NCBI GenBank assembly: GCA_018969115.1
Contig: JAGWYZ010000012.1
Span: 1 to 34,294 of the forward strand
Direction: 5' to 3'
DNA: 34,294 nt
Origin: Chloroflexota bacterium
GTDB lineage: Bacteria > Chloroflexota > Anaerolineae > J036 > Brachytrichaceae
Shown: positions 1,445-34,218 of the stretch, piece after piece
Position numbering within the stretch: the stretch's first letter is position 1
Layout: the number at the start of each line of letters is the position of its first letter
Position numbers and translations under genes: made by a program
The notes under the pieces: model-generated
What the model was told of the DNA's origin: nothing
The model's database searches: none
The model's input: only the letters and a program-made list of their open reading frames with translations

Positions 1445-2833
1445 TTATGGCTGAATACGCGCCGCCAACGCCCGCGCCCGCGCTGGCGCATCGCCAACAT
1501 AGGCGCTGGCATCGAGCAAAGCCCGCGCTTGGGCGGCTGGCAGCAAACGGGTGATTTCAACATCGACACACAATGAATCGATGAGCGGATTGGCTTGCCC
1601 AGCATTGATGGCGGCCCATGCCTGCATCGAATGGCTGCGTATGACCTCATGCAGGTTTTGGCGGTCGCCACCCGCCTTGACCGCCGCCATGAGCAGCCGC
1701 TCGGTGGCAGCAAAAGGGCCATAGGTCGCCATATTGCGAGCGATTTGGGCCGTGTTGATGCGCAGATCGCGCACAATGCGCGTCGCCACCCGCAACATTT
1801 CATCCACCGCCAAAAAGGCTTCAGGTAAAACTACGCGGCGGTTGGCCGAGTCGTCGAGGGTGCGCTCGAGCAACGAATGGGCGGCGTTGTCCCACATCAC
1901 ACGCGGCAGCGTCGCCACAAAACGCGCCAACGAGTCGATCTTTTCGGCATTGATGGGGTTGCGTTTAAAGGGCATGGCTGATGACCCCACTTGTTTACTT
2001 GCAAATGGCTCGGCCAATTCGCCAATGGGCGGCGACTGCAACACCCGCAAATCAAAGGCAAATTTATACAATGATTGTGAAATGCCAGCCAACACATTCA
2101 ACACCAACCAATCTTGTTTGCGCGGATACGTTTGCGTCACCACCTCAAAAGTGAGTTGGTTGATCGATTGGTGGAGATGTTGATTAAAGCTGGCAAAGCG
2201 CACTGGGTCTGCATCGCATAATTCTAAATACGAAGCGCTGGTACCAACAGCACCGCGAAAACCTTTACCCTTAATCTGATCGCGACAACGCCGCAACTCG
2301 TCAAGATCGATACACAGATCTTGCAAATATTGTGCAAGGCGGTAGCCCAGCGTGGTCGGCTCGGCGGGCTGCAAATGGGTAAACGCCATCGTCGTCAGGT
2401 CGGCATAGCGTTCAACCTGCGCCGCAAGGCTGTGCAACAACCCTTCGAGGCTGGTCAGAGTGAGCGTCAAAGCCGCTTGTAAACGCATCGCCTCAGCGTT
2501 GTCCTCAATATCCATGCTGGTTGCACCCAGATGAATAATGCCGCCGCCAATCGGGCATTGCTCAGCAAAAGCATGAACCTCGGCCATCAAATCATGATGA
2601 ATTTCGCGTTCAATCTCAAGGGCGCGGGCAATGCTGGCCTCGGTCACATCGTCGGCATGGGCACGGAGGTCATCAACCTGCGCCGCATTCACAATGCCAA
2701 GCTGTAATTGGGCCTCAGCCAACTTTACCCATAATTGTCGCCATAAGCGGCGCTTGTGTTGTTCGCTCCATAATTCGCGCATAGCAGCGCCGCCATAACG
2801 CTGTGTAAAGGGCGATTGAAAAGTGTGGTGCAT
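1445..2833 (-). CDS. purB: Adenylosuccinate lyase
   Basis: 462 aa; fumarase/ASL signature SSAMPFKRNPINAEKIDSLARF; HLGATSMDIEDNAEAMRL. Confidence 0.93.
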   Translation of the reverse strand: MHHTFQSPFTQRYGGAAMRELWSEQHKRRLWRQLWVKLAEAQLQLGIVNAAQVDDLRAHADDVTEASIARALEIEREIHHDLMAEVHAFAEQCPIGGGIIHLGATSMDIEDNAEAMRLQAALTLTLTSLEGLLHSLAAQVERYADLTTMAFTHLQPAEPTTLGYRLAQYLQDLCIDLDELRRCRDQIKGKGFRGAVGTSASYLELCDADPVRFASFNQHLHQSINQLTFEVVTQTYPRKQDWLVLNVLAGISQSLYKFAFDLRVLQSPPIGELAEPFASKQVGSSAMPFKRNPINAEKIDSLARFVATLPRVMWDNAAHSLLERTLDDSANRRVVLPEAFLAVDEMLRVATRIVRDLRINTAQIARNMATYGPFAATERLLMAAVKAGGDRQNLHEVIRSHSMQAWAAINAGQANPLIDSLCVDVEITRLLPAAQARALLDASAYVGDAPARARALAARIQP

Positions 2834-2946
2834 TGAAAATTGAAAATTAAAAATGTGAAATTATTGACACAGAAATCGAGTTTCTTCCAGAAACCCGATT
2901 TCTAGATAAGCATGCTTATTGCCGACAATTTTACATTTTCAATTTT
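2834..2946. repeat. AT-rich short-repeat hairpin (GAAAATT words)
   Basis: TGAAAATTGAAAATTAAAAATGTGAAATT ... AATTTTACATTTTCAATTTTAAATTC. Confidence 0.75.
2866..2908. repeat. Dispersed palindrome AGAAATCGAGTTTCT-TCC-AGAAACCCGATTTCT, copy 1
   Basis: 15-bp arms, 1 mismatch, 3-nt loop; nested in an AT-rich hairpin between purB and the D-TA-like gene. Confidence 0.8.
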
Positions 2947-4088
2947 AAATTCCCCCACACAGGGTTTTCGCGTCCGCGGGCGGCAATGTCTTCGACAGCC
3001 ACAATGTGACCCTCTTCGATGATGAGTGCGTGGTCGAAATTATTGACCGTTGGACAAACATGGCGCGGTACAAAATACAGCACCTCGCCAATTTCGGGCA
3101 ATGGGCTTCCGGCGGGTACATCAATCGGCAAATGTTCTTCGCTGGGGCCTTTGGGCGACCAATCAGCATGACCAATCACCTCGCCAGTCGGGATACCAGC
3201 ATCTGCCGACAACGCCTTGTGCCCAGCATACGCCGTAACGCGATTAGGAGCCGGTTGGCTGGCAACATGGGCAATCACCACTGCCGCCGGTTTGTAATCG
3301 AGCTGCGGCAAAATATTGGGAAATGACATATCGGCATAAATCACAGTGCCGGGCGACACCCGATGCACAAAATTGGCCCCACGAAATGGCGCATACGTCA
3401 GCGCACATGGGTAAGCCGGTGTGCCAGAGGTCACCACTTCGGGCACGCGAATGCCAACGCCATTGATGGCGGCGATCAAAGTCATCAACCCGTCATAATT
3501 TTGGTGAGCCGCAATCGTGCGCTCGGGCATGGCCAGATGCGACAAATGCCCATCATAATAATGAATACCTGCAAACTCAACCCCTGCCGCAATGATGGCT
3601 TGGGTCAGCGCCACAATATCACCCACCCGTGCTTGCGGTAGGCCGCTGCGATTCATACCTGGGTTAACATCGACATACAGCGCTACTTTGCTGCCCACCC
3701 ACGCCTTTAGTTGCGATGGATGCTCGATAGTGGCACTAACGCGCGTATTCGGAAATTGGGCGGCGATATCGCAGGTGCGGCGGGCATTCGCCCCCACCAA
3801 CGAATAGGCCAAATTGGCATCGGGCGCACCAATTTGGCACAAAGTGAGCAATTCAAGAGTGGTGGCAGCCTTAAATTGCTTCACGCCATGCTGCATAAAA
3901 CGCCGCATCGTGCTTGGCAATTTGTTGGTCTTAATATGCGGTCGCCAACGATTGGGGTCGTTGCCACATTCAGCCAAAGTCACTTGAATATTGTGCTCAA
4001 CAAATTTGGGGTAAATTGCCAAGGCTGGGGTCATAATATTGACTAAATCAGCATCGACAATGCGGTAATCGGCAAGTGAAAGGTTCAT
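2931..4088 (-). CDS. D-threonine aldolase / D-serine dehydratase-like PLP enzyme (alanine racemase N-terminal fold)
   Basis: RPHIKTNKLPSTMRRFMQHGVKQFKAATTLE PLP-Lys region, DVNPGMNRSG, C-terminal HVCPTVNNFD motif. Confidence 0.85.
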   Translation of the reverse strand: MNLSLADYRIVDADLVNIMTPALAIYPKFVEHNIQVTLAECGNDPNRWRPHIKTNKLPSTMRRFMQHGVKQFKAATTLELLTLCQIGAPDANLAYSLVGANARRTCDIAAQFPNTRVSATIEHPSQLKAWVGSKVALYVDVNPGMNRSGLPQARVGDIVALTQAIIAAGVEFAGIHYYDGHLSHLAMPERTIAAHQNYDGLMTLIAAINGVGIRVPEVVTSGTPAYPCALTYAPFRGANFVHRVSPGTVIYADMSFPNILPQLDYKPAAVVIAHVASQPAPNRVTAYAGHKALSADAGIPTGEVIGHADWSPKGPSEEHLPIDVPAGSPLPEIGEVLYFVPRHVCPTVNNFDHALIIEEGHIVAVEDIAARGRENPVWGNLKLKM

Positions 4089-4091
4089 TTT

Positions 4092-4168
4092 TTTAATTAC
4101 GAATTACGAATTACGAATTACGAATTCGTCGCAAGTAATCTTACGATTCGTAATTTGTAATTCGTAGT
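4092..4168. repeat. Short-tandem-repeat hairpin (AATTACG word)
   Basis: (AATTACG)x4 then AATTCG; right arm ATTCGTAATTTGTAATTCGTA. Confidence 0.9.
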
Positions 4169-4172
4169 TTAC

Positions 4173-5150
4173 TTATCTGACTTGTAAGTCTACAACCAAT
4201 TCTGGACGCAATTCTAATCTCCCATTACGCGCCTCAACCCATTCGCCTTGGGCCGATAACACATCGCCTACATGCAACGTGCGCGAGAAAGGCAAACTGT
4301 GCCAAAGGTCAAACAACTGTATCGGCATACTATTGCCCTGATCGTCTTGCAACTCAATACGAGCCGATTGGGCAGCGCCACGAATATCACGCACCATGCC
4401 ACTGACGGCCAGCCACTGTGCGGGGGCTTCTTTTGCCATCGCCGCAATCGGGCGAATCTCAAAAGCCCGTGCCACCGGCAATAATTGGGTGCTGGCAGCC
4501 CGCAAAGCTAACAATTGTTTGCGCCCACGAAACTCGGCCACACTGCCCTCAAGCCGCACCCAATCACCCACTTGCACATCGGGTGGGCGACCAAATACAG
4601 CTGAATTGAGCGGCATTACCAGATCGGCGGTGGCGTTATCTTCACGCAAGCCAATAATACGCAGGCTATTGCCTGCATCACGGCTGCGGCGCACTTGGGC
4701 TGTCACGCTGACCACATCGCCCACGGCGGCGGCATCCAGCTCGCTCAGGTGAATAGATCTTGTGGCGGGGGCAGTAATGCGTAATTCATCGGCAGCGTTG
4801 ATGGTTAAAGTCGCCTCATCATCTCGAATCCGCAACGTGCCTTCAACCGCCACTTGGTCGCCGGGTGCTGGAATATTTTTACGGCGCAGCAATTCAGCCA
4901 CCACCGCCCGATATGCTTGCACCCGCATTTCGCCGCCGCGATCACGCAATCGAAAAGACAAATAGCCGTCGGCCTCTGACAAAATGGGGTGATCGGCTAA
5001 AACGCCTTCCAGCCTCACATAGGCAAAGTTCATGGCCGGTTGAATGGCTGCCGATGAAATGGTGGTGCGAGGTTTGGCTTGAGAAGCGAGAATGAAGGCA
5101 GCAGTGCTGCCAATTGCCAAAAAAACGAGTAATATTTTGGCAACACGCAT
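4173..5150 (-). CDS. Exported protein with repeated OB-fold-like domains
   Basis: N-terminal hydrophobic signal/anchor; repeated VGDxVxVxGxV...L.L pattern about three times. Confidence 0.6.
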   Translation of the reverse strand: MRVAKILLVFLAIGSTAAFILASQAKPRTTISSAAIQPAMNFAYVRLEGVLADHPILSEADGYLSFRLRDRGGEMRVQAYRAVVAELLRRKNIPAPGDQVAVEGTLRIRDDEATLTINAADELRITAPATRSIHLSELDAAAVGDVVSVTAQVRRSRDAGNSLRIIGLREDNATADLVMPLNSAVFGRPPDVQVGDWVRLEGSVAEFRGRKQLLALRAASTQLLPVARAFEIRPIAAMAKEAPAQWLAVSGMVRDIRGAAQSARIELQDDQGNSMPIQLFDLWHSLPFSRTLHVGDVLSAQGEWVEARNGRLELRPELVVDLQVR

Positions 5151-5154
5151 GAAG

Positions 5155-5224
5155 AAATTTAAAATTTAAAATGGAAAATTTAAAATTGGAGGAAAAGCCT
5201 AGTTAATTTTCCATTTTAAATTTC
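5155..5224. repeat. AT-rich short-repeat hairpin
   Basis: AAATTTAAAATGGAAAATTTAAAATT ... TTAATTTTCCATTTTAAATTT. Confidence 0.75.
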
Positions 5225-5225
5225 A

Positions 5226-5474
5226 CTAGTTGGCTGGTGGTGGGACGGGTAAGTCAGCGATCGCAGTTTTTGCCCATTTGTCACCTTCTTCAATCAACAT
5301 AATCGGAATACCGTCTTTAATTGGGTATTTACGACCACAAGTTTCATCAATCAACCAACTGTCTTTATAAAAAGTCAGTCGGCCCGGGTCTTCGCCGGGT
5401 TGGCGGGTTGACCCTGAAACACAATAGGGGCAACGTAAAATATTGAGAAGCTCTTGGCTAATAGTGTGTACCAT
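5226..5474 (-). CDS. Trm112 family protein
   Basis: 82 aa; ISQELLNILRCPYCVSG...CGRKYPIKDGIPIMLIEEG typical of Trm112/UPF0434. Confidence 0.88.
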   Translation of the reverse strand: MVHTISQELLNILRCPYCVSGSTRQPGEDPGRLTFYKDSWLIDETCGRKYPIKDGIPIMLIEEGDKWAKTAIADLPVPPPAN

Positions 5475-5541
5475 GTATTTTGTCCTTATATGAATTTAAA
5501 TTTTGTTTATTTTATACCGAGAAATAATAAAACAAGAGAAT

Positions 5542-5595
5542 GCCGATCTTACGATGCCGCTTCCTGCAAAGCAGAAGAGACATCGTGAGATCGGC
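5542..5595. repeat. Variable-core palindrome family member (imperfect)
   Basis: GCCGATCTTACGATG...CTGC-AAA-GCAG...CATCGTGAGATCGGC. Confidence 0.7.
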
Positions 5596-5630
5596 AAAAA
5601 CGACATTTTTAATGCTTTTATGAGTATAAC

Positions 5631-6422
5631 TTACGCACCGCGCAATTGTCGCACGTGCTCGCTCACCACTTGCACCGGATCAGCGGCATCAAACGAGGCC
5701 CGCAACAAGGCGCTGGCAACAATGGCCCCATCGGCCAAGTTGCCGATCTCGCGCACATGAGCGGCAGTGCTAACACCAAAGCCCACTACGACCGGTTTGC
5801 CCTCGGCCTTAGCTTTTACGCGCTCAACATATTCACGCAGGCCAGCGGCGAGGGTGTCGCGTGCGCCTGTCACCCCTGTCACCTGCACTACATAAATAAA
5901 ACCGCTGGCATAATTGGCAGCCAATTCGAGGCGGGCGGCGGTGCTGGTGGGCGCGGCAAATTGCACCAAAGCCATATTATTTTGGGCGCACAATTCCCCC
6001 AATTCGCCGCTCTCTTCGGGCGGCAAATCGGGCACAATTAGCCCGTCAACGCCAGCCTTGCACCAATCTTCAACATAACCTTGTTCACCATAAGCAATGA
6101 GTGGATTAAGATAGCCCATTGCAAAAAGCGGCACAGTCACGCCTTCGGCCCGCACTCTGGCGGCAATCTCCATGCCTTTGCGCATCGTTATACCATTTTC
6201 CAAGGCAATTTGCGAGGCTTTTTGCACCACCACGCCATCGGCCAATGGGTCGCTAAACGGAATACCCAGTTCGATCATGTCGGCGCCTGCTGTTGCAATC
6301 GCTTTGATGATCTGCACGGACGTTTCGATCGTCGGGTAGCCTAAGGTCCAAAACGGCATCAATGCCGGGCGGTGTTCGCTTCGCGCTTTGGCAAAAGCAT
6401 GGTCAATAGCATTCAGGCCCAT
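5631..6422 (-). CDS. trpA: Tryptophan synthase alpha chain
   Basis: MIELGIPFSDPLADGVVVQKA, GVDGLIVPDLPPEE, VVGFGVSTAAHV motifs. Confidence 0.95.
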   Translation of the reverse strand: MGLNAIDHAFAKARSEHRPALMPFWTLGYPTIETSVQIIKAIATAGADMIELGIPFSDPLADGVVVQKASQIALENGITMRKGMEIAARVRAEGVTVPLFAMGYLNPLIAYGEQGYVEDWCKAGVDGLIVPDLPPEESGELGELCAQNNMALVQFAAPTSTAARLELAANYASGFIYVVQVTGVTGARDTLAAGLREYVERVKAKAEGKPVVVGFGVSTAAHVREIGNLADGAIVASALLRASFDAADPVQVVSEHVRQLRGA

Positions 6423-6429
6423 CAGTTTG

Positions 6430-6631
6430 GAAATTTAGAATTTAAAATGGAAAATGGAAAATTGGGCAGCAATTTTTGAGGGCATCCTCAAAAGACGTAA
6501 TGCCGAAATCACTATGGCAACCTGTTTGCATTGGGCTTTGCCCAATGCAAACAGGTTGCCATAGTGATTTCGGCGAAGATTTATTTTACCTGCCCCAATT
6601 TTTCATTTTAAATTTTCAATTTTGAATTTTT
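6430..6631. repeat. AT-rich hairpin arms enclosing the 6502-6574 palindrome
   Basis: GAAATTTAGAATTTAAAATGGAAAATGGAAAATTGGGCAG ... CTGCCCCAATTTTTCATTTTAAATTTTCAATTTTGAATTTTT. Confidence 0.75.
6502..6574. repeat. Variable-core palindrome family member (perfect 35-bp arms)
   Basis: GCCGAAATCACTATGGCAACCTGTTTGCATTGGGC-TTT-GCCCAATGCAAACAGGTTGCCATAGTGATTTCGGC. Confidence 0.95.
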
Positions 6632-7095
6632 CGGTAGCTGCCGTTGAAATAAATTAAGGGGGAAGCTTCGGGTTGTTGCACTTGGGCAGCCAACACTTGA
6701 CCAATAAAGATAGTGTGATCGCCGCCCAGATGCCGCTCGATCACTTTACAATCGAGATACGCTAGGGCATCACTCAACACCGGCGCACCAGTGGCCGCCA
6801 CATGATGCGCCAAGCCAGCAAAACGCTCGGTGTCGGGCATACGCCCCGCAAACCGATCTGAGATCGACTGCATTTCTGGCGTTAGAAAATTGACGCAAAA
6901 AATGCCACTGGCATCGATGAGCGGGTGGGTGCGGGTTTTGGTGTTGATGCACACAAATACCATCGGTGGGTCTACGGCCAACGACGAAAACGCCGTTGCC
7001 GTTAACCCATAAATTAGGCCATCGTGTTTGGTAGTGATGATGGTGACGGTGCTGGCCCAGCGCCGCATCACTTGCTTCATATTATCGGGAGTCAT
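6616..7095 (-). CDS. Flavin reductase family protein
   Basis: MRRWASTVTIITTKHDGLIYGLTATAFSSLAVDPPMVFVCINTKTRTHPLI...FCVNFL, flavin-reductase-like FMN-binding pattern. Confidence 0.9.
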   Translation of the reverse strand: MTPDNMKQVMRRWASTVTIITTKHDGLIYGLTATAFSSLAVDPPMVFVCINTKTRTHPLIDASGIFCVNFLTPEMQSISDRFAGRMPDTERFAGLAHHVAATGAPVLSDALAYLDCKVIERHLGGDHTIFIGQVLAAQVQQPEASPLIYFNGSYRKIQN

Positions 7096-7098
7096 CTT

Positions 7099-7184
7099 TG
7101 GAAATATAAAATTGAAAATGTAAAATTGAAAATTGGCCCATGGCCTCCATTTTTAATTTTACATTTTCGATTTTCAATTTTATT
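7099..7184. repeat. AT-rich short-repeat hairpin (AAAATTG/AAAATGT words)
   Basis: AAATATAAAATTGAAAATGTAAAATTGAAAATTGG ... ATTTTTAATTTTACATTTTCGATTTTCAATTTTATTT. Confidence 0.8.
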
Positions 7185-8344
7185 TAGCCGTGTTTCTTCA
7201 TAAAACGATACATACGCTCGATCGCAGTTTCAATTTTTTCATAAGATTGGGCGTAGGCGATACGCACATGATTTGCACCAGAAAAGCCAAAAGCGCTGCC
7301 GGGCACCAGTGCCACTTCTTCTTCTGCCAATAGCGTATTCGCAAATACGTCGCCGTTCATGCCACTGGCACTGACGTCGGGGAAACAATAAAATGCGCCG
7401 CGTGGCTCAAAACAGGTTAGGCCCATCGTGTTTAGCTCACGCACCAACAATTTGCGCCGCCGATCATATTCACCCACCATGTGTTGCACATGTGCTTCGC
7501 CTTGCTCTAGCGCCGCCACCGCCGCAGCTTGGCTCATGGTGGGGGCCGACATGATAATGTATTGATGCACCTTTTTGGCGGCCGCTACCAATGCCTCTGG
7601 CCCACACATATAGCCAATTCGCCAGCCGGTCATGGCGTAATCTTTGCTAAAGCCGCCCAAAAGCACGGTGCGCTCGCGCATGCTCGGCAACGATGGCACA
7701 CACACATGTGGCACCCCATACACCAACCGGTCATACACTTCGTCACTCACGACAATCAAATCATGCTTTTTGGCCACCTCACCGATACTGATTAGATTGT
7801 CACGGGTATACACTGCGCCGGTGGGGTTGCTGGGCGAGCCAATTAAAATGGCTTTGGTTTTAGGCGTAATATAAGGTGCTATCACATCACCGCTGGCCTG
7901 AAAACCTGTGGCAGCGGTCAAATCGACAGTCACAGGCGTACCGCCCGACAACGCCACCGAAGCCGAATAAGCCACAAAACATGGGGCCGGAATGACCACT
8001 TCATCACCTGGGTCACAAATGGCGATGAATAAATCGGCAAAAGCCTCGCTCACCCCAACCGTCACAAAAATCTCGGTTTCTGGGTCATAGCTCACGCCAT
8101 AACGCTTACTAAGGTGGGCGCTAATAGCACGGCGCAGTTGAATAGTGCCAGCATTGCTGGTATAAGCGGTTTCGCCGCGCAGCAATGAATCGACCCCCGC
8201 CTGCAAAATAGGGCGCGGGGTGACAAAATCTGGCTCCCCAATCGCAAGTGAAATCACCTTGGGGTTGGCAGCGGCAATATCAAAAAACTTGCGTATGCCC
8301 GATGGGGGAATAGCGTTAACACGCTGTGAGATCAAGTTGCGCAT
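7184..8344 (-). CDS. Class I/II pyridoxal-phosphate aminotransferase
   Basis: GEPDFVTPRPI, SPSNPTGAVY, SDEVYDRLVY, GGFSKDYAMTGWRIGY (PLP lysine). Confidence 0.93.
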   Translation of the reverse strand: MRNLISQRVNAIPPSGIRKFFDIAAANPKVISLAIGEPDFVTPRPILQAGVDSLLRGETAYTSNAGTIQLRRAISAHLSKRYGVSYDPETEIFVTVGVSEAFADLFIAICDPGDEVVIPAPCFVAYSASVALSGGTPVTVDLTAATGFQASGDVIAPYITPKTKAILIGSPSNPTGAVYTRDNLISIGEVAKKHDLIVVSDEVYDRLVYGVPHVCVPSLPSMRERTVLLGGFSKDYAMTGWRIGYMCGPEALVAAAKKVHQYIIMSAPTMSQAAAVAALEQGEAHVQHMVGEYDRRRKLLVRELNTMGLTCFEPRGAFYCFPDVSASGMNGDVFANTLLAEEEVALVPGSAFGFSGANHVRIAYAQSYEKIETAIERMYRFMKKHG

Positions 8345-8391
8345 TGGGCTATTTTAATCGCAGCTGGCGCTTCATTACGTACAATCTTGCC

Positions 8392-9447
8392 ATGACAATA
8401 ATCCCGTTTCCCACCCTCTCACTAAATGAGCGCCTCGCACGGCTTGCTTTGCCGCCCCAAACTGGGCAGCTGCCGATTGTGATTGATACCGACCCATATA
8501 ACGAAATTGACGATCAATTCGCAATCACCTACGCCCTCAGCTCACCAGAGCGATTTGAGGTAAAAGCACTCTATGCCGCGCCATTTGCCAATGAGCGCTC
8601 TGGCTTTGATGAAGGACGCGGCATGGCCACCAGTTTTGAAACAGCCCAGACGATATTGGCAAAATTACAGACGCAGGGCGCATCAACCCCGCCGGTTTAT
8701 CGCGGCAGCACCCGCTTTGCCACCTCACCAACTGACCCATCTGGCTTTCAAGGCGAGGCCATTCACAGCGATGCCGCCGCGCATCTCATTCAATTGGCCC
8801 GTACCCAGCCCGATGATGCGCCGCTGTATGTGGTGGCAATTGCAGCCATCACCAATATTGCATCGGCCATTTTGTTAGCCCCCGATCTCATTCGCAAAAT
8901 TATTGTGGTTTGGCTGGGTGGGCATCCGCATAACTATCACGATACCAATGAATTTAATTTGCAGCAAGACCCCTTCGCCACCCGTGTCATTTTAGATTGC
9001 GGGGTGCCGTTGGTGCTCATCCCATGTTTTAACGTCACCGAGCATTTGTCGCTCACCACCAACGAGGTACAAACGCGGGTGGCACCGCACGGCGAAATTG
9101 GCGCATATTTGGCGCACGAGTTTGTTAAATATGCCGCCGAGCACCATGCCGACTCGCGTGCAATTTGGGATATGGGGCCATTTGCTTGGTTGGTGAACCC
9201 CGATTGGGTCGAGACGGCGATTATGCCAACCCCCATTTTGGGGACCAGCCCCTTGCAAACCGAAGGTTACTCTGCCCCGCATTTACATAAAAAACGGCAG
9301 GCCAACAAAAGCCGCCCCGCGCATTGCGCATGGTCGATCGACCCACGACGGCACGTCATGCTTGAAGCATTGCGGCTCAATCGTGATGCAATTTTTGCTG
9401 ATTTTTATCGTAAATTAGCGGGGTTTGCAACAAACAGTAGAAGTTAA
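8392..9447 (+). CDS. Nucleoside hydrolase (IUNH-like)
   Basis: IVIDTDPYNEIDDQFAITYAL (Ca-binding Asp cluster); MTIIPF start at 8392 preferred over 8326. Confidence 0.88.
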   Translation: MTIIPFPTLSLNERLARLALPPQTGQLPIVIDTDPYNEIDDQFAITYALSSPERFEVKALYAAPFANERSGFDEGRGMATSFETAQTILAKLQTQGASTPPVYRGSTRFATSPTDPSGFQGEAIHSDAAAHLIQLARTQPDDAPLYVVAIAAITNIASAILLAPDLIRKIIVVWLGGHPHNYHDTNEFNLQQDPFATRVILDCGVPLVLIPCFNVTEHLSLTTNEVQTRVAPHGEIGAYLAHEFVKYAAEHHADSRAIWDMGPFAWLVNPDWVETAIMPTPILGTSPLQTEGYSAPHLHKKRQANKSRPAHCAWSIDPRRHVMLEALRLNRDAIFADFYRKLAGFATNSRS

Positions 9448-14365: not shown

Positions 14366-14466
14366 AATCGTAACTCCATCTAAGCATATTACAACCCAAG
14401 TCGTAATTCTTGATAAGAAATTGACAAAATCTTGATTTTTGTAAGGGTCAAAATAATAACGAAACC

Positions 14467-14555
14467 GTCATTTCGAGCGGAGCGAGAAATCTTTGCATAA
14501 CATACGCTTTTAGCCTCAATTTACACAAAGATTTCTCGCTTCGCGTCGAAATGAC
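14467..14555. repeat. Inverted-repeat element GTCATTTCGAGCGGAGCGAGAAATCTTTG...CAAAGATTTCTCGCTTCGCGTCGAAATGAC, copy 1
   Basis: About 29-bp near-perfect inverted arms; a second copy in opposite orientation begins at 21221. Confidence 0.85.
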
Positions 14556-14605
14556 AGATGTTACGCAAAAATGACGATTTCTATCTCGTGCGTGATGACA
14601 CAGCG

Positions 14606-16776: not shown

Positions 16777-16794
16777 ACCGAGGGAACATTATAG

Positions 16795-16900
16795 TAGTGA
16801 GTAGTGAGGAAGCCGTGAGCTTTGAGCCATGAGCTTTGGTCACGAGTCATGAGTCATGAGTCAAAGCCCAAGGCTCATGGCTCAAAGCTCACGGCTCACA
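16795..16900. repeat. Short-tandem-repeat hairpin (GTGAGC / TTTGAGCCAT words)
   Basis: Left GCCGTGAGCTTTGAGCCATGAGC is the exact inverse of right GCTCATGGCTCAAAGCTCACGGC; loop carries GAGTCATGAGTCATGAGTC. Confidence 0.85.
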
Positions 16901-16947: not shown

Positions 16948-17304
16948 ATGTCATTTATTATCAGAATTGTCGTAAACGCGATTGCATTGTGGGCCACAGC
17001 CTATTTGTTGCCCGGCATGACGGTCTCGGGCAGCATCGTCAACTTGCTTGTTTTGGGGGCGGTGTTTGGGGTGGTCAATGCCTTGGTCAAGCCTATCGTG
17101 ACGGCGTTGTCATGCCCGTTGGTCATCCTTACACTCGGATTGTTTATTTTGGTCATCAATGGTGGCATGTTGTTGCTAACGGCGCGGCTGGTTGGCCCTG
17201 AAATGATGATCATTCGCGATTGGACCGTCGCCATCATCGCCGGCATCGTCATGGGCATCATCAACATGATTCTTGAGACGATTGTTGGGTCGGTAGAGAG
17301 TTAA
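16948..17304 (+). CDS. Phage-holin-family (YvlD/DUF360-like) small membrane protein
   Basis: 118 aa, four hydrophobic segments, GAVFGVVNALVKPIVTALSCPLVILTLGLFILVINGGMLLLTA; AAGGAG ribosome-binding site. Confidence 0.88.
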   Translation: MSFIIRIVVNAIALWATAYLLPGMTVSGSIVNLLVLGAVFGVVNALVKPIVTALSCPLVILTLGLFILVINGGMLLLTARLVGPEMMIIRDWTVAIIAGIVMGIINMILETIVGSVES

Positions 17305-17385
17305 AGGTTGGGGGTTAAGAGTTAAAAGTGAGGTTGCGTAATTTTGACTATCACTCTCAACTCTCAACTTTTATGAACTCTCAAC
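17296..17385. repeat. Short-tandem-repeat hairpin (GAGAGTT/AAGAGTT and AACTCTC words)
   Basis: GAGAGTTAAAGG...GGTTAAGAGTTAAAAGTGAG versus TCACTCTCAACTCTCAACTTTTATGAACTCTCAAC. Confidence 0.75.
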
Positions 17386-17949: not shown

Positions 17950-18052
17950 TTTTTTCGCCGTGTGTTTTGAGCCATCTGCTTTTGCTCTGAATCGTAGCAC
18001 ACTCATATTGCTAATGGGGAGATGAAGTCTCCAATATTTATTGAATTAGTTT

Positions 18053-18252
18053 CTCTAAGACACTGTTTCTTAAAACAATTTTTCGCCAAAATCACTATCT
18101 CAGGGTTGTTATGGGGTGGCAAAGCCACCCCATAACAACCCTGAGATAGTGATTTTGGCATTCATTTTGTCTAAATATGCGCTCTGATTTGATAAAATCA
18201 TGTGACTTCATCTGACAAAAAAGTGGAAATTGATTTAAGAAACACCCTCTAA
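18053..18252. mobile_element. MITE-like foldback element with a 36-bp perfect palindromic core
   Basis: Related ends AGACACTGTTTCTTAAAACAATTT (left) and AATTGATTTAAGAAACACCCTCT (right); core 18085-18120 / 18124-18159 perfect with AAA loop; right 87 bp (18164-18250) also found at 1-87. Confidence 0.75.
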
Positions 18253-19911: not shown

Positions 19912-20072
19912 GCATCCAGACTTACAAATCTATGTGTGGTTCAGAGGTTGTATAAAACGTTGCAATTTGTCTCTCTCGCAGCCCGCAAAAAATACAAAGA
20001 GTTTACAAAAATACCCTCTTTGTGTTCTTTGCGAGCTTTGTGAAAGGTTGTATATCGTTTGTATACTAATGC

Positions 20073-20885
20073 TTATGGCTTGGCGGTAAAGGTCAGCTTG
20101 AGCTTGGCATCGTCATTGGCCTTCAACATGCCGGCAATATTAGGCGGGTCAAAATTAAACATGGTCATTTTGACGGCGGTGGTAGCGCTGCCCTTAAGTG
20201 CACTGCCATCATAAACCGCTTCTACATCCCAAGTGATCGGTTTGCTGGTTTCTTTCACCTTCATGTCACCAATCATCTTAAATTTGAGCGTATCGCCAAC
20301 TTTATAGCTGGTGGGTAAGCCCTCTAACTTGGTTGGGTTAAATTCAGCAATTGGGAACTTGGCCGATTCGAGCCATTGGGTGCGAATGAAGCTATCGCGG
20401 CGGGTGCTGCCGTTGCCATTGGGGTGCCCGTCGCTCTTAAGCACTTGAATATTGACGCTCACTTTGCCCACTTGGGTTTTTGATGGGTCATTTGGGTCAA
20501 GCTTGATCTCGCCATTAATATTATCGGTAATACCGATGGCGGTGGCCAGCTTGTTATTTTGGTTAAAAAACACCTCATCCACTTCATATTGGGCTTTCGA
20601 CTCACCCGGCACAATTTTGAGGGTGATGGGGCCTGTGGCTGCCGGTTTGGGTGCGTCAGTTGGCTTGGGTGCGTCGGTGGGTTTAGGGGCGGCGGTGGGT
20701 TGGGCTACTGTTGGGGCAGCTATTGGCGCTGAGGCCGATGTCGGAGCTGCTGCCACAGGTTTTGTGGCTTCAGTGGGTTTGGCGGGGACCGCCGTTGGGG
20801 CTGGTGTGGCGGTGGGGCTACAGGCTGCCAGCAAAACGCTTGCGAGCACGAGCATACTGGTATGTTTGATTACACTTGTTTTCAT
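20073..20885 (-). CDS. YceI-family lipoprotein
   Basis: Lipobox LLAACSP; Pro/Ala/Thr linker; YceI-like SKAQYEVDEVFFNQNN...GEIKLDPND...FIRTQWLESAKFPIAEF. Confidence 0.88.
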   Translation of the reverse strand: MKTSVIKHTSMLVLASVLLAACSPTATPAPTAVPAKPTEATKPVAAAPTSASAPIAAPTVAQPTAAPKPTDAPKPTDAPKPAATGPITLKIVPGESKAQYEVDEVFFNQNNKLATAIGITDNINGEIKLDPNDPSKTQVGKVSVNIQVLKSDGHPNGNGSTRRDSFIRTQWLESAKFPIAEFNPTKLEGLPTSYKVGDTLKFKMIGDMKVKETSKPITWDVEAVYDGSALKGSATTAVKMTMFNFDPPNIAGMLKANDDAKLKLTFTAKP

Positions 20886-21007: not shown

Positions 21008-21220
21008 GCGAACATTTGTTTTGTTTACCCCAAAAAATAGTGAACATGACACAAGATACGTCATGTTCACTGTAAATACTATTAAAAATGCCAAAATAGA
21101 TGTCTTAATTAGTGATTTACTATCAAACTCTTAGCTGAGATTCATTTATATCGACATAACCATCATCAACAATATACGGAAATGATTAAACACTGTAAGG
21201 ATCAAGATGATCGTAGAATG

Positions 21221-21304
21221 GTCATTTTGACGTGAAGCGAGAAATCTTTGCGTAAATTGAGGCTCGAAGCGTATCTTAAGCAAAGATGACGATTTGACGA
21301 TGAC
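21221..21304. repeat. Copy 2 (reverse orientation, one arm decayed) of the 14467-14555 element
   Basis: GTCATTTTGACGTGAAGCGAGAAATCTTTGCGTAAATTGAGGCTCGAAGCGTATCTTAAGCAAAGAT aligns to the reverse complement of copy 1. Confidence 0.75.
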
Positions 21305-21363
21305 ACTATCATCTTGCCCCCTACAGAAATGATTAAGTACGCAAAATCTTGCTTATAACCCTT

Positions 21364-22068
21364 TTACGGTCTTGCTAATGGCTCCCAACCCAATTCACGC
21401 TTGGCCTTGGCCATATTGATAATTTTGCCTTCGTAGTCACCACTAATCATATAGGCCTGATACCCATTGCGATACCGTAGCGCTGCATCGAAGGCACGCG
21501 CGAGGTCACTGGCGGCGGTATGAAATGTGAGTTTACCCGCCCGCGCAATTTCAAGCCATGCCTCATCGGTGATTGGGAAACACATGCGCAAGACATTGGC
21601 GCTCATGCCAAATTGCACCACTGCGTTATAACATACCATTTCGCCCATATATTTGGTCAGCGCATATAAATTGCGCCCATCGAAGGGGATGGCTTCGTCG
21701 TAAAAATAGCGTGTGGTCAGTTCGCCATCATAGATTGACATCGAGCTGGTATACACAGCGTGTTGGATGCCAGCCTCACGTGCTGCTCGCAGCGCCAAAT
21801 ACACGGCTTTGGTGTTGACATCAAAACCGGTTTGAATGCCCTCGACCTCTGTCCAATTGAGCGTCCCCATCGCCATGTAAATCAGCGCATCCATACCCGT
21901 CAGTGCATCACGCATCGCATCGTAATCGGTGACGGCTCCAATGCGATAATCGAGTGTGGCATCGGCGGGTGGGCGCAGATCGAACACCCTAATATTGTGT
22001 TGTGGCTTGAGAAATGGAATAACGCGGCTTGCAACGCCACCGGCGCCGCCAATAATAAGTAGGTTCAT
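21364..22068 (-). CDS. NAD-dependent epimerase/dehydratase family protein
   Basis: MNLLIIGGAGGVASRVIPFL (Rossmann Gly motif), YTSSMSIY, YALTKYMGE (YxxxK). Confidence 0.88.
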   Translation of the reverse strand: MNLLIIGGAGGVASRVIPFLKPQHNIRVFDLRPPADATLDYRIGAVTDYDAMRDALTGMDALIYMAMGTLNWTEVEGIQTGFDVNTKAVYLALRAAREAGIQHAVYTSSMSIYDGELTTRYFYDEAIPFDGRNLYALTKYMGEMVCYNAVVQFGMSANVLRMCFPITDEAWLEIARAGKLTFHTAASDLARAFDAALRYRNGYQAYMISGDYEGKIINMAKAKRELGWEPLARP

Positions 22069-22209
22069 GGTTGGTTGGTTTATTGGTTTATTGGTTTATT
22101 GGTTGATTTATCATTTATTTTACAGATGTTATTAAGCAGTTAACCAGTCAACCAGTCAACCAGTCAACTAATAAACCAGTCAACTAGTCAACTAATCAAC
22201 CAACCAACC
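22069..22209. repeat. Short-tandem-repeat hairpin (GGTTTATT / CCAGTCAA words)
   Basis: GGTTGGTTGGTTTATTGGTTTATTGGTTTATTGGTTGATTTA ... TTAACCAGTCAACCAGTCAACCAGTCAACTAATAAACCAGTCAACTAGTCAACTAATCAACCAACCAACC fills the gap between divergent genes. Confidence 0.85.
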
Positions 22210-23325: not shown

Positions 23326-25515
23326 TTAAGTGATGGCTTTCAAATCAACAATTAAATTGGATTGCGCATCGACATGACATCGCCCACGCCTGCCAATGAT
23401 GAGCGTGGCCTCGCGTTCTTCGACAATGGCCGGGCCATTAAATATCATGCCGGGCGCGAGGCGATAGCGGTCGTAAACCGATGTTAATTGCATCGCGTTA
23501 GTTTCTGTGCCGTCCTCGCCATCGGCTTCAGGGTCATAAGCCATGCGCTGGGTTTTGATGGCACTGCTGGCGGTGCGAGGGGTTGTGTCATCGGTTTGCG
23601 CGGCGATGGTTTGTAAACTTAGCCGCAAATTGGGTTCGGGCGATGACGAAATCACCCGCCATGTCACGGTCTCAAGCGGCACTGGCGGCCCCAGCCGACC
23701 AAAAAACCGCACATATTCATGTTCAAATTCGGCTTGAATATTTGGCAAATCAGCGGCGCTTAATATGTGATTGGGCAGACGGATGCGAACTTCGTGGCCT
23801 TGTCCGACATAACGCATCTCTGCAATGTGTTGATGGTGAATATTGTTGATCGATATGCCAGAATTGCACAACAACTGTGTGCCTTCAGTTTGCATCTCAC
23901 CCAGTAATGCGTTTATTTTGGCCCAACCGTCGGTGTTTAATGTTGCCAATTGGGTTGGGAACGAGCGCGTAAAGTCGAAGGCCAGTGGGGCACTGAGGAA
24001 GCCGATGGCGCTCATTACTCCGGCCCCAAATGGAACGATAACCTGTGGCGACCCCAGCGAAGCTGCGACGCGATAGGCATGAACTGGCCCGGCCCCGCCA
24101 AAGGCAAAAATGGGCAGGGTGCGCGGGTCTTTGCCACGTTCAATGCTGTGTACGCGGGCGGCGTTTGCCATTTGCTCATTCACAATTTGGTGAATACCCC
24201 ACGCTGCCTGTTCAATACTCAACCCCAGCGGTATGGCGATGTGGGTTTCAATGGCGCGGCGGGCTGCCACCACATCGAGCGCTATCGCTCCGCCTAGAAA
24301 AAATTGTGGGTCGAGAAAACCTAACACCAAATCGGCATCGGTGACAGTTGGCTCAGTGCCGCCGCGTCCATAACAAGCCGGGCCGGGTTCGGCCCCTGCC
24401 GATTCAGGGCCAATTTTGAGCAAGCCTAAGGCGTTTAGGCGGGCAATTGAGCCACCGCCTGCCCCAATTTCGATCATTTCGATGACGGGGGCTTTGATGG
24501 GCAAGCCAGATCCCTTTTTGAAACGGTAGCGCCGGTCTATCTCAAAATCGTGGGCCAAGAGTGGTTTGCCTTGGTCGATGATGGCAAATTTAGCAGTAGT
24601 GCCGCCCATGTCGAATGAGAGTAGATCGGCAGCGTGGCCTTGTGTGCCACTCGATAGGCCAAAACGGGCCGCTGCTAATGTGCCCCCGGCTGGACCACTT
24701 TCGAGCAAACGTACCGGATAACGTACCGCGGTATCAACCGTGCCCAGCCCACCACTCGACAACATTAATAACAAGCTGCCCGTGAAGCCAGCACGTGCCA
24801 GCCGCGCCTCAAGTTCGCGCAAATAATGTTCGACGTGTGCCTGCACATACACATTTGCCACAGTGGTCGAGGTGCGTTCATATTCACGAATTTCAGGCAC
24901 AACATCGGCTGAGATCGATACGCGTATGTTTGGGGCCACCCGTTGCACAATGGCGCGGGCTTGGCGCTCGGCGGCGGGGTTGGTATAGCTGTTGATAAAA
25001 GCGATGGCGATGGCGGTAATGCCTGCTGCGTCTAATTCATGCACCAGTTTTTCAAGGTAAACCTCGTCGAGCGCGTGTAAGGTGCTGCCGTCAGACAAGG
25101 TGCGTTGAGGCACATCAAAACGCAAATAACGCGGCACCAGCGGTTGTGGCATCTCAAGTTGTAGGTCATACAGATCGTAACGGTGTTCGCGCCCAATCTC
25201 AAGCGTATCTTTAAAGCCTTGGGTGGTGAGCAAGGCTGTTGGTGCGCCTTTGCGCTCAATGATGGCATTGGTTACTAAGGTTGTGCCATGAATGATTTGC
25301 CTGAGGTCGGCATGGGTGATGCCAGCCTTTGCCAACGTCTCATTTAAACCGGTTTTGATCGCCAAAGATGGGTCGCTGGGGGTAGTGAGGGTTTTGCCAA
25401 TGCTAAAGCTGCCGCTGACATCATCGACTACGATCAGGTCGGTAAAGGTGCCGCCAATATCGACACCGGCGCGGTACTGGTGGGGGCGGTTTTGAGGGGC
25501 TGAGAGGCTGGGCAT
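23326..25515 (-). CDS. Hydantoinase/oxoprolinase A (HyuA) family protein
   Basis: YRAGVDIGGTFTDLIVVDD, IIHGTTLVTNAIIERKGAPTALLTTQGFKDTLEIGREHRYDLYDL, SFDMGGTTAKFAII. Start at 25515 preferred; the extension to 25605 reads through a palindrome. Confidence 0.93.
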   Translation of the reverse strand: MPSLSAPQNRPHQYRAGVDIGGTFTDLIVVDDVSGSFSIGKTLTTPSDPSLAIKTGLNETLAKAGITHADLRQIIHGTTLVTNAIIERKGAPTALLTTQGFKDTLEIGREHRYDLYDLQLEMPQPLVPRYLRFDVPQRTLSDGSTLHALDEVYLEKLVHELDAAGITAIAIAFINSYTNPAAERQARAIVQRVAPNIRVSISADVVPEIREYERTSTTVANVYVQAHVEHYLRELEARLARAGFTGSLLLMLSSGGLGTVDTAVRYPVRLLESGPAGGTLAAARFGLSSGTQGHAADLLSFDMGGTTAKFAIIDQGKPLLAHDFEIDRRYRFKKGSGLPIKAPVIEMIEIGAGGGSIARLNALGLLKIGPESAGAEPGPACYGRGGTEPTVTDADLVLGFLDPQFFLGGAIALDVVAARRAIETHIAIPLGLSIEQAAWGIHQIVNEQMANAARVHSIERGKDPRTLPIFAFGGAGPVHAYRVAASLGSPQVIVPFGAGVMSAIGFLSAPLAFDFTRSFPTQLATLNTDGWAKINALLGEMQTEGTQLLCNSGISINNIHHQHIAEMRYVGQGHEVRIRLPNHILSAADLPNIQAEFEHEYVRFFGRLGPPVPLETVTWRVISSSPEPNLRLSLQTIAAQTDDTTPRTASSAIKTQRMAYDPEADGEDGTETNAMQLTSVYDRYRLAPGMIFNGPAIVEEREATLIIGRRGRCHVDAQSNLIVDLKAIT

Positions 25516-25548
25516 ATATACTGAGCGTAGCTTTAAACTGAGATTTTC

Positions 25549-25603
25549 GCCTATATCACTATCCCTCCTCAAGCCACGCTTGAGGAGGGATAGTGATATA
25601 GGC
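25549..25603. repeat. Variable-core palindrome family member (perfect)
   Basis: GCCTATATCACTATCCCTCCTCAAGC-CAC-GCTTGAGGAGGGATAGTGATATAGGC: 26-bp perfect arms, 3-nt loop. Confidence 0.92.
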
Positions 25604-25649
25604 ATTGCGCAATTTTTACCTGTGTAATGTATGGTATTTTATGGAAATA

Positions 25650-30701: not shown

Positions 30702-30752
30702 GAAAGTGCTGAGTGCTGAGTGCTAAGTTGCTACTCAGGACTCAGCACTTTC
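30702..30752. repeat. Short-tandem-repeat hairpin (GTGCTGA word)
   Basis: GAAAGTGCTGAGTGCTGAGTGCTAAG / CTACTCAGGACTCAGCACTTTC. Confidence 0.85.
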
Positions 30753-31901: not shown

Positions 31902-32822
31902 ATGACCGCAACGAAACACCCCAACAGCCTAAAACGCAAAACCCGTTTGGGCGAAAAACTAATTCAAGCTTTTTTCTTTTTTTGTGGTTTTGTTTCTATC
32001 TTTACGACGATTGGCATTGTGGTGGCACTTGGTTCACAGGCGCTGCGCTTTTTTGGCGAGCCTAGCATCAACCTGATTGAGTTAATTACTACCACTAATT
32101 GGTCGCCTAATATTGGCGAGATTGGTATTTGGCCATTGGTGACATCGACGCTCATCACGACTTTTCTGGCGCTTTTGGTGGCGATTCCGTTAGGGTTGGC
32201 GGCTGCCATTTATCTAAGCGAATATGCTACGCCCAAGGTGCGTAATACGCTTAAACCCGTTCTTGAGATTTTGGCGGGGGTGCCAACGGTGGTGTATGGT
32301 TATTTTGCTTTAACCTTTATGACCCCGTTATTACGCCTCATTTTCGGCAGCGATGTGGTCAAAATTTACAATATGGCTTCGGCGGGGTTGGTGTGTGGGG
32401 TGATGATTATCCCGTTGATCTGCTCGATGAGCGAAGACGCCCTACGTGCTGTGCCGCGTAGCCTGCGCGAAGGCTCGTTTGGCTTGGGCGCAACCAAGCT
32501 AGAGACCAGCCTCAGGGTGGTGTTGCCCGCCGCGTTGTCGGGTGTCATCGCTGCTATTGTGGTGGGCACATCTCGCGCCATCGGTGAGACGATGATTATG
32601 GCGACAGCGGCAGGGGCTGGCCCTAATTTCACCTTTAACCCATTCGAGAGTGCCGAAACGATGGCTGGGCATATTGTGCGCATCAGCGGTGGTGATGTTG
32701 ATTACAACAGTATCGACTACACCAGCATTTTTATCGTTGGCCTTACCTTGTTTTTAATGACCTTAGCCCTCAATTTTCTCAGCCGTTATTTTGTAAATAA
32801 GTATCGTGAAGTTTATGAATAA
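31902..32822 (+). CDS. pstC: Phosphate ABC transporter permease PstC
   Basis: IPLGLAAAIYLSEYATPKVRNTLKPVLEILAGVPTVVYGYFALTFMTPLLR; EDALRAVPRSLREGSFGLGATKLETSLRVVLPAALSGVIAAIVVGTSRAIGET. Confidence 0.9.
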   Translation: MTATKHPNSLKRKTRLGEKLIQAFFFFCGFVSIFTTIGIVVALGSQALRFFGEPSINLIELITTTNWSPNIGEIGIWPLVTSTLITTFLALLVAIPLGLAAAIYLSEYATPKVRNTLKPVLEILAGVPTVVYGYFALTFMTPLLRLIFGSDVVKIYNMASAGLVCGVMIIPLICSMSEDALRAVPRSLREGSFGLGATKLETSLRVVLPAALSGVIAAIVVGTSRAIGETMIMATAAGAGPNFTFNPFESAETMAGHIVRISGGDVDYNSIDYTSIFIVGLTLFLMTLALNFLSRYFVNKYREVYE

Positions 32823-32880
32823 GGATAAAGGATAAAGGATGAAGGTTGATGACTTTCTCATCTTTCATCCTTTACTTCTA
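32819..32880. repeat. Short-tandem-repeat hairpin (AAGGATA word)
   Basis: TAAGGATAAAGGATAAAGGATGAAGG ... CTCATCTTTCATCCTTTACTTCT, between pstC stop and pstA start. Confidence 0.8.
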
Positions 32881-34135: not shown

Positions 34136-34203
34136 GAGCCATGAGCTGTGAGCTGTGAGCCATGACTCACGAACAGTTTTAGCTCAAGGCTCAAGGCTCA
34201 CAG
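34136..34203. repeat. Short-tandem-repeat hairpin (GTGAGCT/GTGAGCC words)
   Basis: GAGCCATGAGCTGTGAGCTGTGAGCC ... AGCTCAAGGCTCAAGGCTCACAGC, directly after the pstA stop. Confidence 0.75.
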
Positions 34204-34218
34204 CCCATCGTAAAAAAC

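Follow-up and report, generated by a model that had tools for sequence, protein, structure and literature searches.

Intergenic hairpins of STRR-type heptanucleotide repeats, expanded in one Chloroflexota lineage and probably turned over by slippage and arm-to-arm copying

The window, a stretch of 34,294 nt identical with contig C162 of a draft Chloroflexota genome (G000; 4.61 Mb in 472 contigs), carries hairpins whose arms are tandem arrays of a short word, usually of 7 nt, and of its reverse complement (Table 1). In one of them 4.6 error-free copies of AATTACG are answered by CGTAATT on the other arm, in agreement with a preliminary description of a site near 4092. Both genes next to this hairpin are on the minus strand; one starts at 4088, and the following one ends at 4173. 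Folded as single-stranded DNA, the hairpin reached -21 kcal/mol (z = -6.5 versus shuffles), and four hairpins folded in this way gave z-scores of -4 to -6.7. Tandem arrays were also found at all the other sites listed in that description, from 2832 to 34136. The 8-mer variant spans the whole gap between two divergent start codons, and its arms are only partly complementary, the two words having just GGTT/AACC in common. An Rfam search of the window matched no family, and no terminator-like stem (G+C rich and followed by a T run, as in intrinsic terminators) was found at the hairpins within 2700-8400.

Table 1. Repeat hairpins of the window and their counterparts in the sister genomes G003 and G001
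Feature	Coordinates	Strand	Remarks	Orthologs
Heptamer hairpin GAAAATT/ATTGAAA	2832..2951	.	Loop holds a second short hairpin	
Heptamer hairpin AATTACG	4095..4166	.	5' arm 4095-4126, 3' arm 4146-4166	
Heptamer hairpin AAATTTA	5155..5223	.		G003 and G001: same junction, same word family, longer 3' arms than the window copy
Heptamer hairpin AATTTAA	6431..6630	.	Flavin-reductase/trpA junction	Also in G003 and G001
73-nt perfect palindrome GCCGAAATCACTATGG...	6502..6574	.	Different element, nested in the loop of 6431..6630	Absent from the G001 ortholog
Heptamer hairpin GAAAATT/AAAATGT	7098..7181	.		
Heptamer hairpin GAGCTTT/GAGCCAT, center GAGTCAT	16793..16899	.	Divergent junction	GAGCCAT in G003; GAGTAAC in G001
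Heptamer hairpin GAGAGTT/GAGTTAA	17296..17369	.	Convergent junction	GATAGYR and inverted loop in G003; GATAGTG in G001
8-mer variant, 5' arm TTGGTTTA, 3' arm CAGTCAAC	22068..22209	.		
Heptamer hairpin AGTGCTG	30705..30749	.	Convergent junction	AGTGCAA in G003
Heptamer hairpin AAGGATA/G	32821..32878	.		AAGGTTG in G003; GATTTTG/A, with a further hairpin inside the loop, in G001
Heptamer hairpin GAGCTGT/GAGCCAT	34136..34205	.		GAGCCAT/GAGCTTT in G003; 8-mer GAATGAGY in G001

The genome also contains a second hairpin family, consisting of near-perfect palindromes of 54 to 75 nt. Their outer ends (GCCRAWNTCACKAT) are conserved while their inner stems vary, and 23 with matching ends were found in 496 kb. 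They occur at 6502-6574 and 18085-18159 of the window and at L010:11634, L012:10410, L018:1808, and other sites, sometimes nested in the loops of heptamer hairpins. Because nested palindromes are absent from sister species (6502 from G001, L012:12389 from G003), this family is probably mobile. Other dispersed repeats, 100 to 200 nt long and recurring many times in G003 and G001, lie at 14433-14580, 18050-18252, 19937-20077, 21181-21329, and 25515-25640.

About 0.5 Mb of the genome was sampled. Of this, 303 kb surrounded AATTACG matches, and 193 kb, the window included, came from contigs picked independently of their repeat content. Array calls depended on a threshold. Of exact period-7 (lag-7) runs with at least 12 matches, the repeat-blind 193 kb contained 25, compared to none in first-order Markov sequence, and the AATTACG-centered 303 kb contained 66. 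Other periods from 4 to 15 gave 0 to 5 runs each in the 193 kb, except for the double unit of 14 (12 runs). An inverted partner of its own word lay within 250 nt of 98 of 139 arrays, while another array's word sought in the same flanks was found for only 4 to 7; a second array in the same orientation accompanied 1 of the 139. Tandem-plus-inverted words are thus in excess over the null, as the preliminary description had supposed. In the unselected sample, an array locus occurred about every 8 kb, a density that extrapolates to several hundred loci in the genome. Contigs end or start inside arrays (L019:16043-16239 and L039:1-38, with AATGGTT and AAAGTGC). Arrays therefore probably break up these assemblies, and the longest ones are probably undercounted. 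At L015:14191-14549, an AATGGTT/AATGGTC array of 210 nt faces an inverted partner of 88 nt across a loop that holds a GAGTCAT repeat, and the array has many relatives in G003.

Three exact tandem copies of AATTACG matched the genome 28 times at about 20 places, and those of AGTGCTG matched it 29 times (backwards controls, 0 each). In the sample, 56 words occur in two or more exact tandem copies. A few dozen related words recur, such as AATTACG, AGTGCTG, AAGGATR, GAGCCNT, and AAATTTA, and four loci of the window belong to the AAATTTA/GAAAATT family. This recurrence contradicts the earlier claim that nearly every locus has its own word. The loci do not collapse into a single consensus element either, with 51 distinct 5'-arm words in the genus alone, and on this point the preliminary description was right. 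Single arrays mix graded words, for example, AGTGCTG, AGTGCAA, AGTGGAA, AGTAGAA, and AGTAAAA, or GAGCCAT, GAGCTTT, GAGCCGT, and GAGTCAT. Some words of the host genome are also found in other phyla. AGTGCTG tandems occur in many Nostocales and, within the class, in 8 of 199 genomes, and 9 of the 56 sampled words also occur at cyanobacterial loci against 3.8 expected, a modest excess in keeping with the resemblance to cyanobacterial heptamers suggested in the preliminary description.

On gene calls from a simple home-made codon-usage caller, which gives approximate boundaries, 57 of the 61 paired loci away from contig ends were intergenic (44 codirectional, 10 convergent, and 3 divergent). The 368 gaps of the sample comprised 243 codirectional, 64 convergent, and 61 divergent ones, and hairpins were depleted in the divergent gaps (3/57 versus 61/368, P = 0.03). 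The median distances from hairpin to left and right gene in codirectional gaps were 3.5 and 3 nt, indicating that the hairpin fills the gap. At some loci the first arm contains a stop codon.

The hairpin between flavin reductase and trpA, at an operon junction, is a derived acquisition. This gene pair is syntenic across the family, and its gap, stop codon included, measures 14 to 37 nt in eleven array-free family genomes. The gap is 81 nt in G001 and reaches 196 nt in both G000 and G003; in the remaining relatives the distance reads longer because trpA was partly aligned or other sequence is present. In G000 the reductase reading frame enters the array and stops at a TGA within it. Array density is high in G000, in G003 (37 per 100 kb), and in G001 (58). 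None were found in 20 kb of G002, which is placed in the same genus, and they are rare in 66 kb from the rest of the family. The expansion is therefore patchy, as it is in cyanobacteria and Beggiatoaceae (PMC4679880).

The same junctions were compared between G000 and the sister genomes G003 (about 93% DNA identity; 78% complete) and G001 (about 80%), all of them drafts. With loci ascertained in G000 first, and the L006-L025 set picked via AATTACG, the junction was occupied in G003 at 24 of 25 array loci for which both flanks were found. Every comparable junction in G001 has a hairpin, and three retain the AAATTTA family. At several junctions the word was replaced in place. AGTGCTG of G000 is AGTGCAA in G003 at window 30705..30749 and L018:8955 and AGTGAAA/AGTGCAA at L015:18380, AAGTGCT is AAGAGCC/AAGAATC at L010:14518, and the words that replace those of the window in G001 are GATTTTG, GATAGTG, GAGTAAC, and the 8-mer GAATGAGY. 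At L077:4320 of G001, GAGTAAY on both arms spans a junction whose window counterpart has GAGCCAT words.

Where the word differs, both arms carry the word specific to the species. The complementarity of the two arms of one genome was compared with that between the 5' arm of one genome and the 3' arm of the other, and it was higher within genomes at 16 loci, lower at 3, and equal at 5 (Wilcoxon P = 0.0003). A second set gave 6, 0, and 5, so that over the 35 orthologous junctions of both sets the within-species value was higher at 22 and lower at 3. At L010:18179, each arm differs between species by exactly one 7-nt unit around an identical loop. Four loops are inverted between species, cleanly at L023:6291 (AAAAGATTTCATGACTTT versus its exact reverse complement), at L018:3345 (GCCTCATTTTCTAATTCG versus its reverse complement), and in short or imperfect form at L018:14853 and window 17296..17369, respectively. 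About 15 loops have the same orientation in both species, and the remainder are undecidable. At two sites, L010:14518 and window 30705..30749, the element was exchanged entirely, loop included. Read from sequence, the comparison is comparative evidence for a rewriting process that acts at fixed sites.

Selection that restores pairing in a functional RNA hairpin, whether for intercistronic processing, stability, termination, or translational coupling, also changes both arms. The placement of the hairpins agrees with such a role, since they fill codirectional gaps and are scarce in divergent ones, as does their persistence in G003, and cyanobacterial STRR hairpins have been discussed as transcript stabilizing or pausing (PMC2670836). 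A useful hairpin would also be expected to persist, as these do, at nearly every junction tested across about 20% DNA divergence. However, conserved mRNA pairing should make G-U more tolerated than A-C in the transcribed strand. In the sense RNA of 65 codirectional hairpins, 87% of 2,408 cells were Watson-Crick pairs, and 72 G-U pairs stood against 91 A-C mismatches (P = 0.16). The lack of a G-U excess is what pairing maintained in DNA and not in RNA would give; it is evidence against RNA pairing as the principal force but leaves room for some RNA role. The identical architecture in divergent and convergent gaps, the missing terminator-like stems within 2700-8400, the inverted or replaced loops, and the wholesale exchange of words also count against it, and we consider an RNA-based explanation rather unlikely.

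Each species' own word on both arms, the higher complementarity within than between species, the four inverted loops, and the absence of a G-U preference together point to slippage and arm-to-arm copying at the DNA level. We think it likely, on these comparisons, that the hairpins are intergenic heptanucleotide repeats of the STRR kind, expanded in one Chloroflexota lineage and turned over in this way. Replication slippage would add or remove 7-nt units and bring in new words. DNA synthesis would then switch arms, by fold-back on the nascent strand or by copying across a cruciform, and the second arm would be the complement of the first because the arms pair and so let synthesis switch between them. 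Inversion across the arms would flip the loop, while a drifting word would sweep both arms of a hairpin that keeps its junction. Selection would mainly decide where hairpins survive, which is in small intergenic gaps rather than genes and seldom in divergent promoter gaps. Homogenized arms and inverted spacers, both present here, are products of template switching between inverted repeats (PMC8794818, PMC8604942). We infer that template switching during replication, and not recombination, does the copying and that the units come from slippage; recombination between arms could be an alternative route to the loop flips. As a process, the slippage with template switching or inversion proposed in the preliminary description gains support from the both-arm rewriting, the one-unit change, and the inverted loops. 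Its argument from a separate word at each locus fails on the recurring families.

Alternatively, hairpins at other genomic loci might donate new arms through gene conversion or recombination. This would suit the two sites at which entire elements were replaced together with their loops, and the recurrence of the same words at different loci. It is nonetheless quite improbable as the general process, given that loops were kept, directly or inverted, while arm length and sequence changed and that the graded word mixtures of single arrays resemble local drift.

The fixed polarity of the hairpins does not follow from slippage and arm copying. Each word has one orientation (18/18 paired loci for AATTACG, 6/6 for AGTGCTG), and no word occurred in both polarities among the 51 of the genus and 42 from elsewhere. 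In a cross-phylum set picked via AGTGCTG, the AGTGCTG hairpins of cyanobacteria, other Chloroflexota, and other phyla all have one orientation. Read towards the loop, 5'-arm words contain about 9% C and 28 to 33% G, and they are C poor in all phyla checked. Gene orientation was rejected as the cause because the sign is alike in all gap types (G>C in 17/17 convergent gaps, and the same sign in codirectional and divergent ones). A general property of local hairpins was also rejected, non-heptamer inverted repeats being G>C in 29 cases and G<C in 45. The supply of stop codons does not explain the polarity either (stop asymmetry of 23 versus 27.1 in letter-shuffled words), and words lacking stops remain G>C by 19 to 3. 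Cytosine deamination with fold-back copying should, by reasoning, yield a G-poor arm, which is the opposite sign. In all gap types, the G-rich strand of the arms is sense after stops and antisense before starts. Partnerless arrays mostly obey the same side rule; in cyanobacteria, it holds for 61 of 79 such arrays from codirectional or convergent gaps. The C-poor 5' arm is a general rule across the phyla checked, and every mechanism must account for it. One that would account for it, and for the recurring words, is an undescribed synthesis, present in many phyla, that adds C-poor heptamers to the 3' strands of the two ends of a broken or stalled junction and joins them into W...W' hairpins, much like a telomere-telomere fusion. 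We regard this as a long shot. Nothing on hairpin elongation by polymerases was found in the literature searched.

A single dispersed mobile element of the MITE or REP type, decayed into many words, would match the high copy number, the inverted-repeat form, and the lineage-confined burst, but it is hardly credible and largely refuted by the in-place replacement of words between sister species, and the hairpins have neither a common consensus nor fixed ends, the fixed-end palindromes of this genome being another kind of element.

As far as the literature searched shows, heptamer hairpins are new for this lineage. Where bacterial heptamer repeats come from and why they pair into hairpins are questions that date from the cyanobacterial descriptions. 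Three sister genomes with different both-arm words and flipped loops at the same sites make the process traceable site by site. Covarying arms, usually taken as proof of RNA function, can come from DNA copying alone.

The short tandemly repeated repetitive (STRR) sequences of filamentous cyanobacteria are 7-bp, intergenic, and hairpin forming and occur in operons, for example, between hupS and hupL, and upstream of hoxW (PMC2670836). The present hairpins resemble them in the 7-bp tandem unit, intergenic position, many loci per genome, and hairpin form, and they have the AGTGCTG word in common with many Nostocales. They differ in their host, which belongs to the Chloroflexota and is not a filamentous cyanobacterium (among 14 named genomes, its GlgC is closest to that of a Thermoflexales MAG of the Chloroflexota, at 62%, and cyanobacteria reach 41 to 44%). 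From this match, the organism most likely belongs to the class Anaerolineae. The hairpins also differ in pairing, 176 of 242 arrays being unpaired at the sampled cyanobacterial loci while most are paired here, and in the number of words and their replacement in place between sister species. According to Rehm et al. 2015 (PMC4692102), the GGGNATC heptamers of Xanthomonas and Nostoc lie between aligned genes, adjoin stop codons, and are rare in divergent gaps, and their G-rich strand is the sense strand where they follow a stop and the antisense strand where they precede a start. Placement, orientation rule, and inverted convergent pairs are the same in the Chloroflexota hairpins, but most of their words lack GGG and the G runs of quadruplexes (AATTACG, AGTGCTG, AAATTTA), so the orientation rule common to both cannot rest on G-quadruplexes alone. 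The TAACTGA direct repeats of Beggiatoaceae, cyanobacteria, and Bacteroidetes, for which a translational role was proposed (MacGregor 2015, PMC4679880), are likewise sporadic heptamer arrays near start codons with a patchy distribution across phyla, but they comprise one word only and are almost always direct (one inverted case). Quasipalindrome template-switch mutations (PMC7202029, PMC8604942, PMC8794818) homogenize arms, invert spacers, and create perfect stems as seen here; they are known from single sites, whereas in this genome the same features are joined to period-7 arrays genome-wide.
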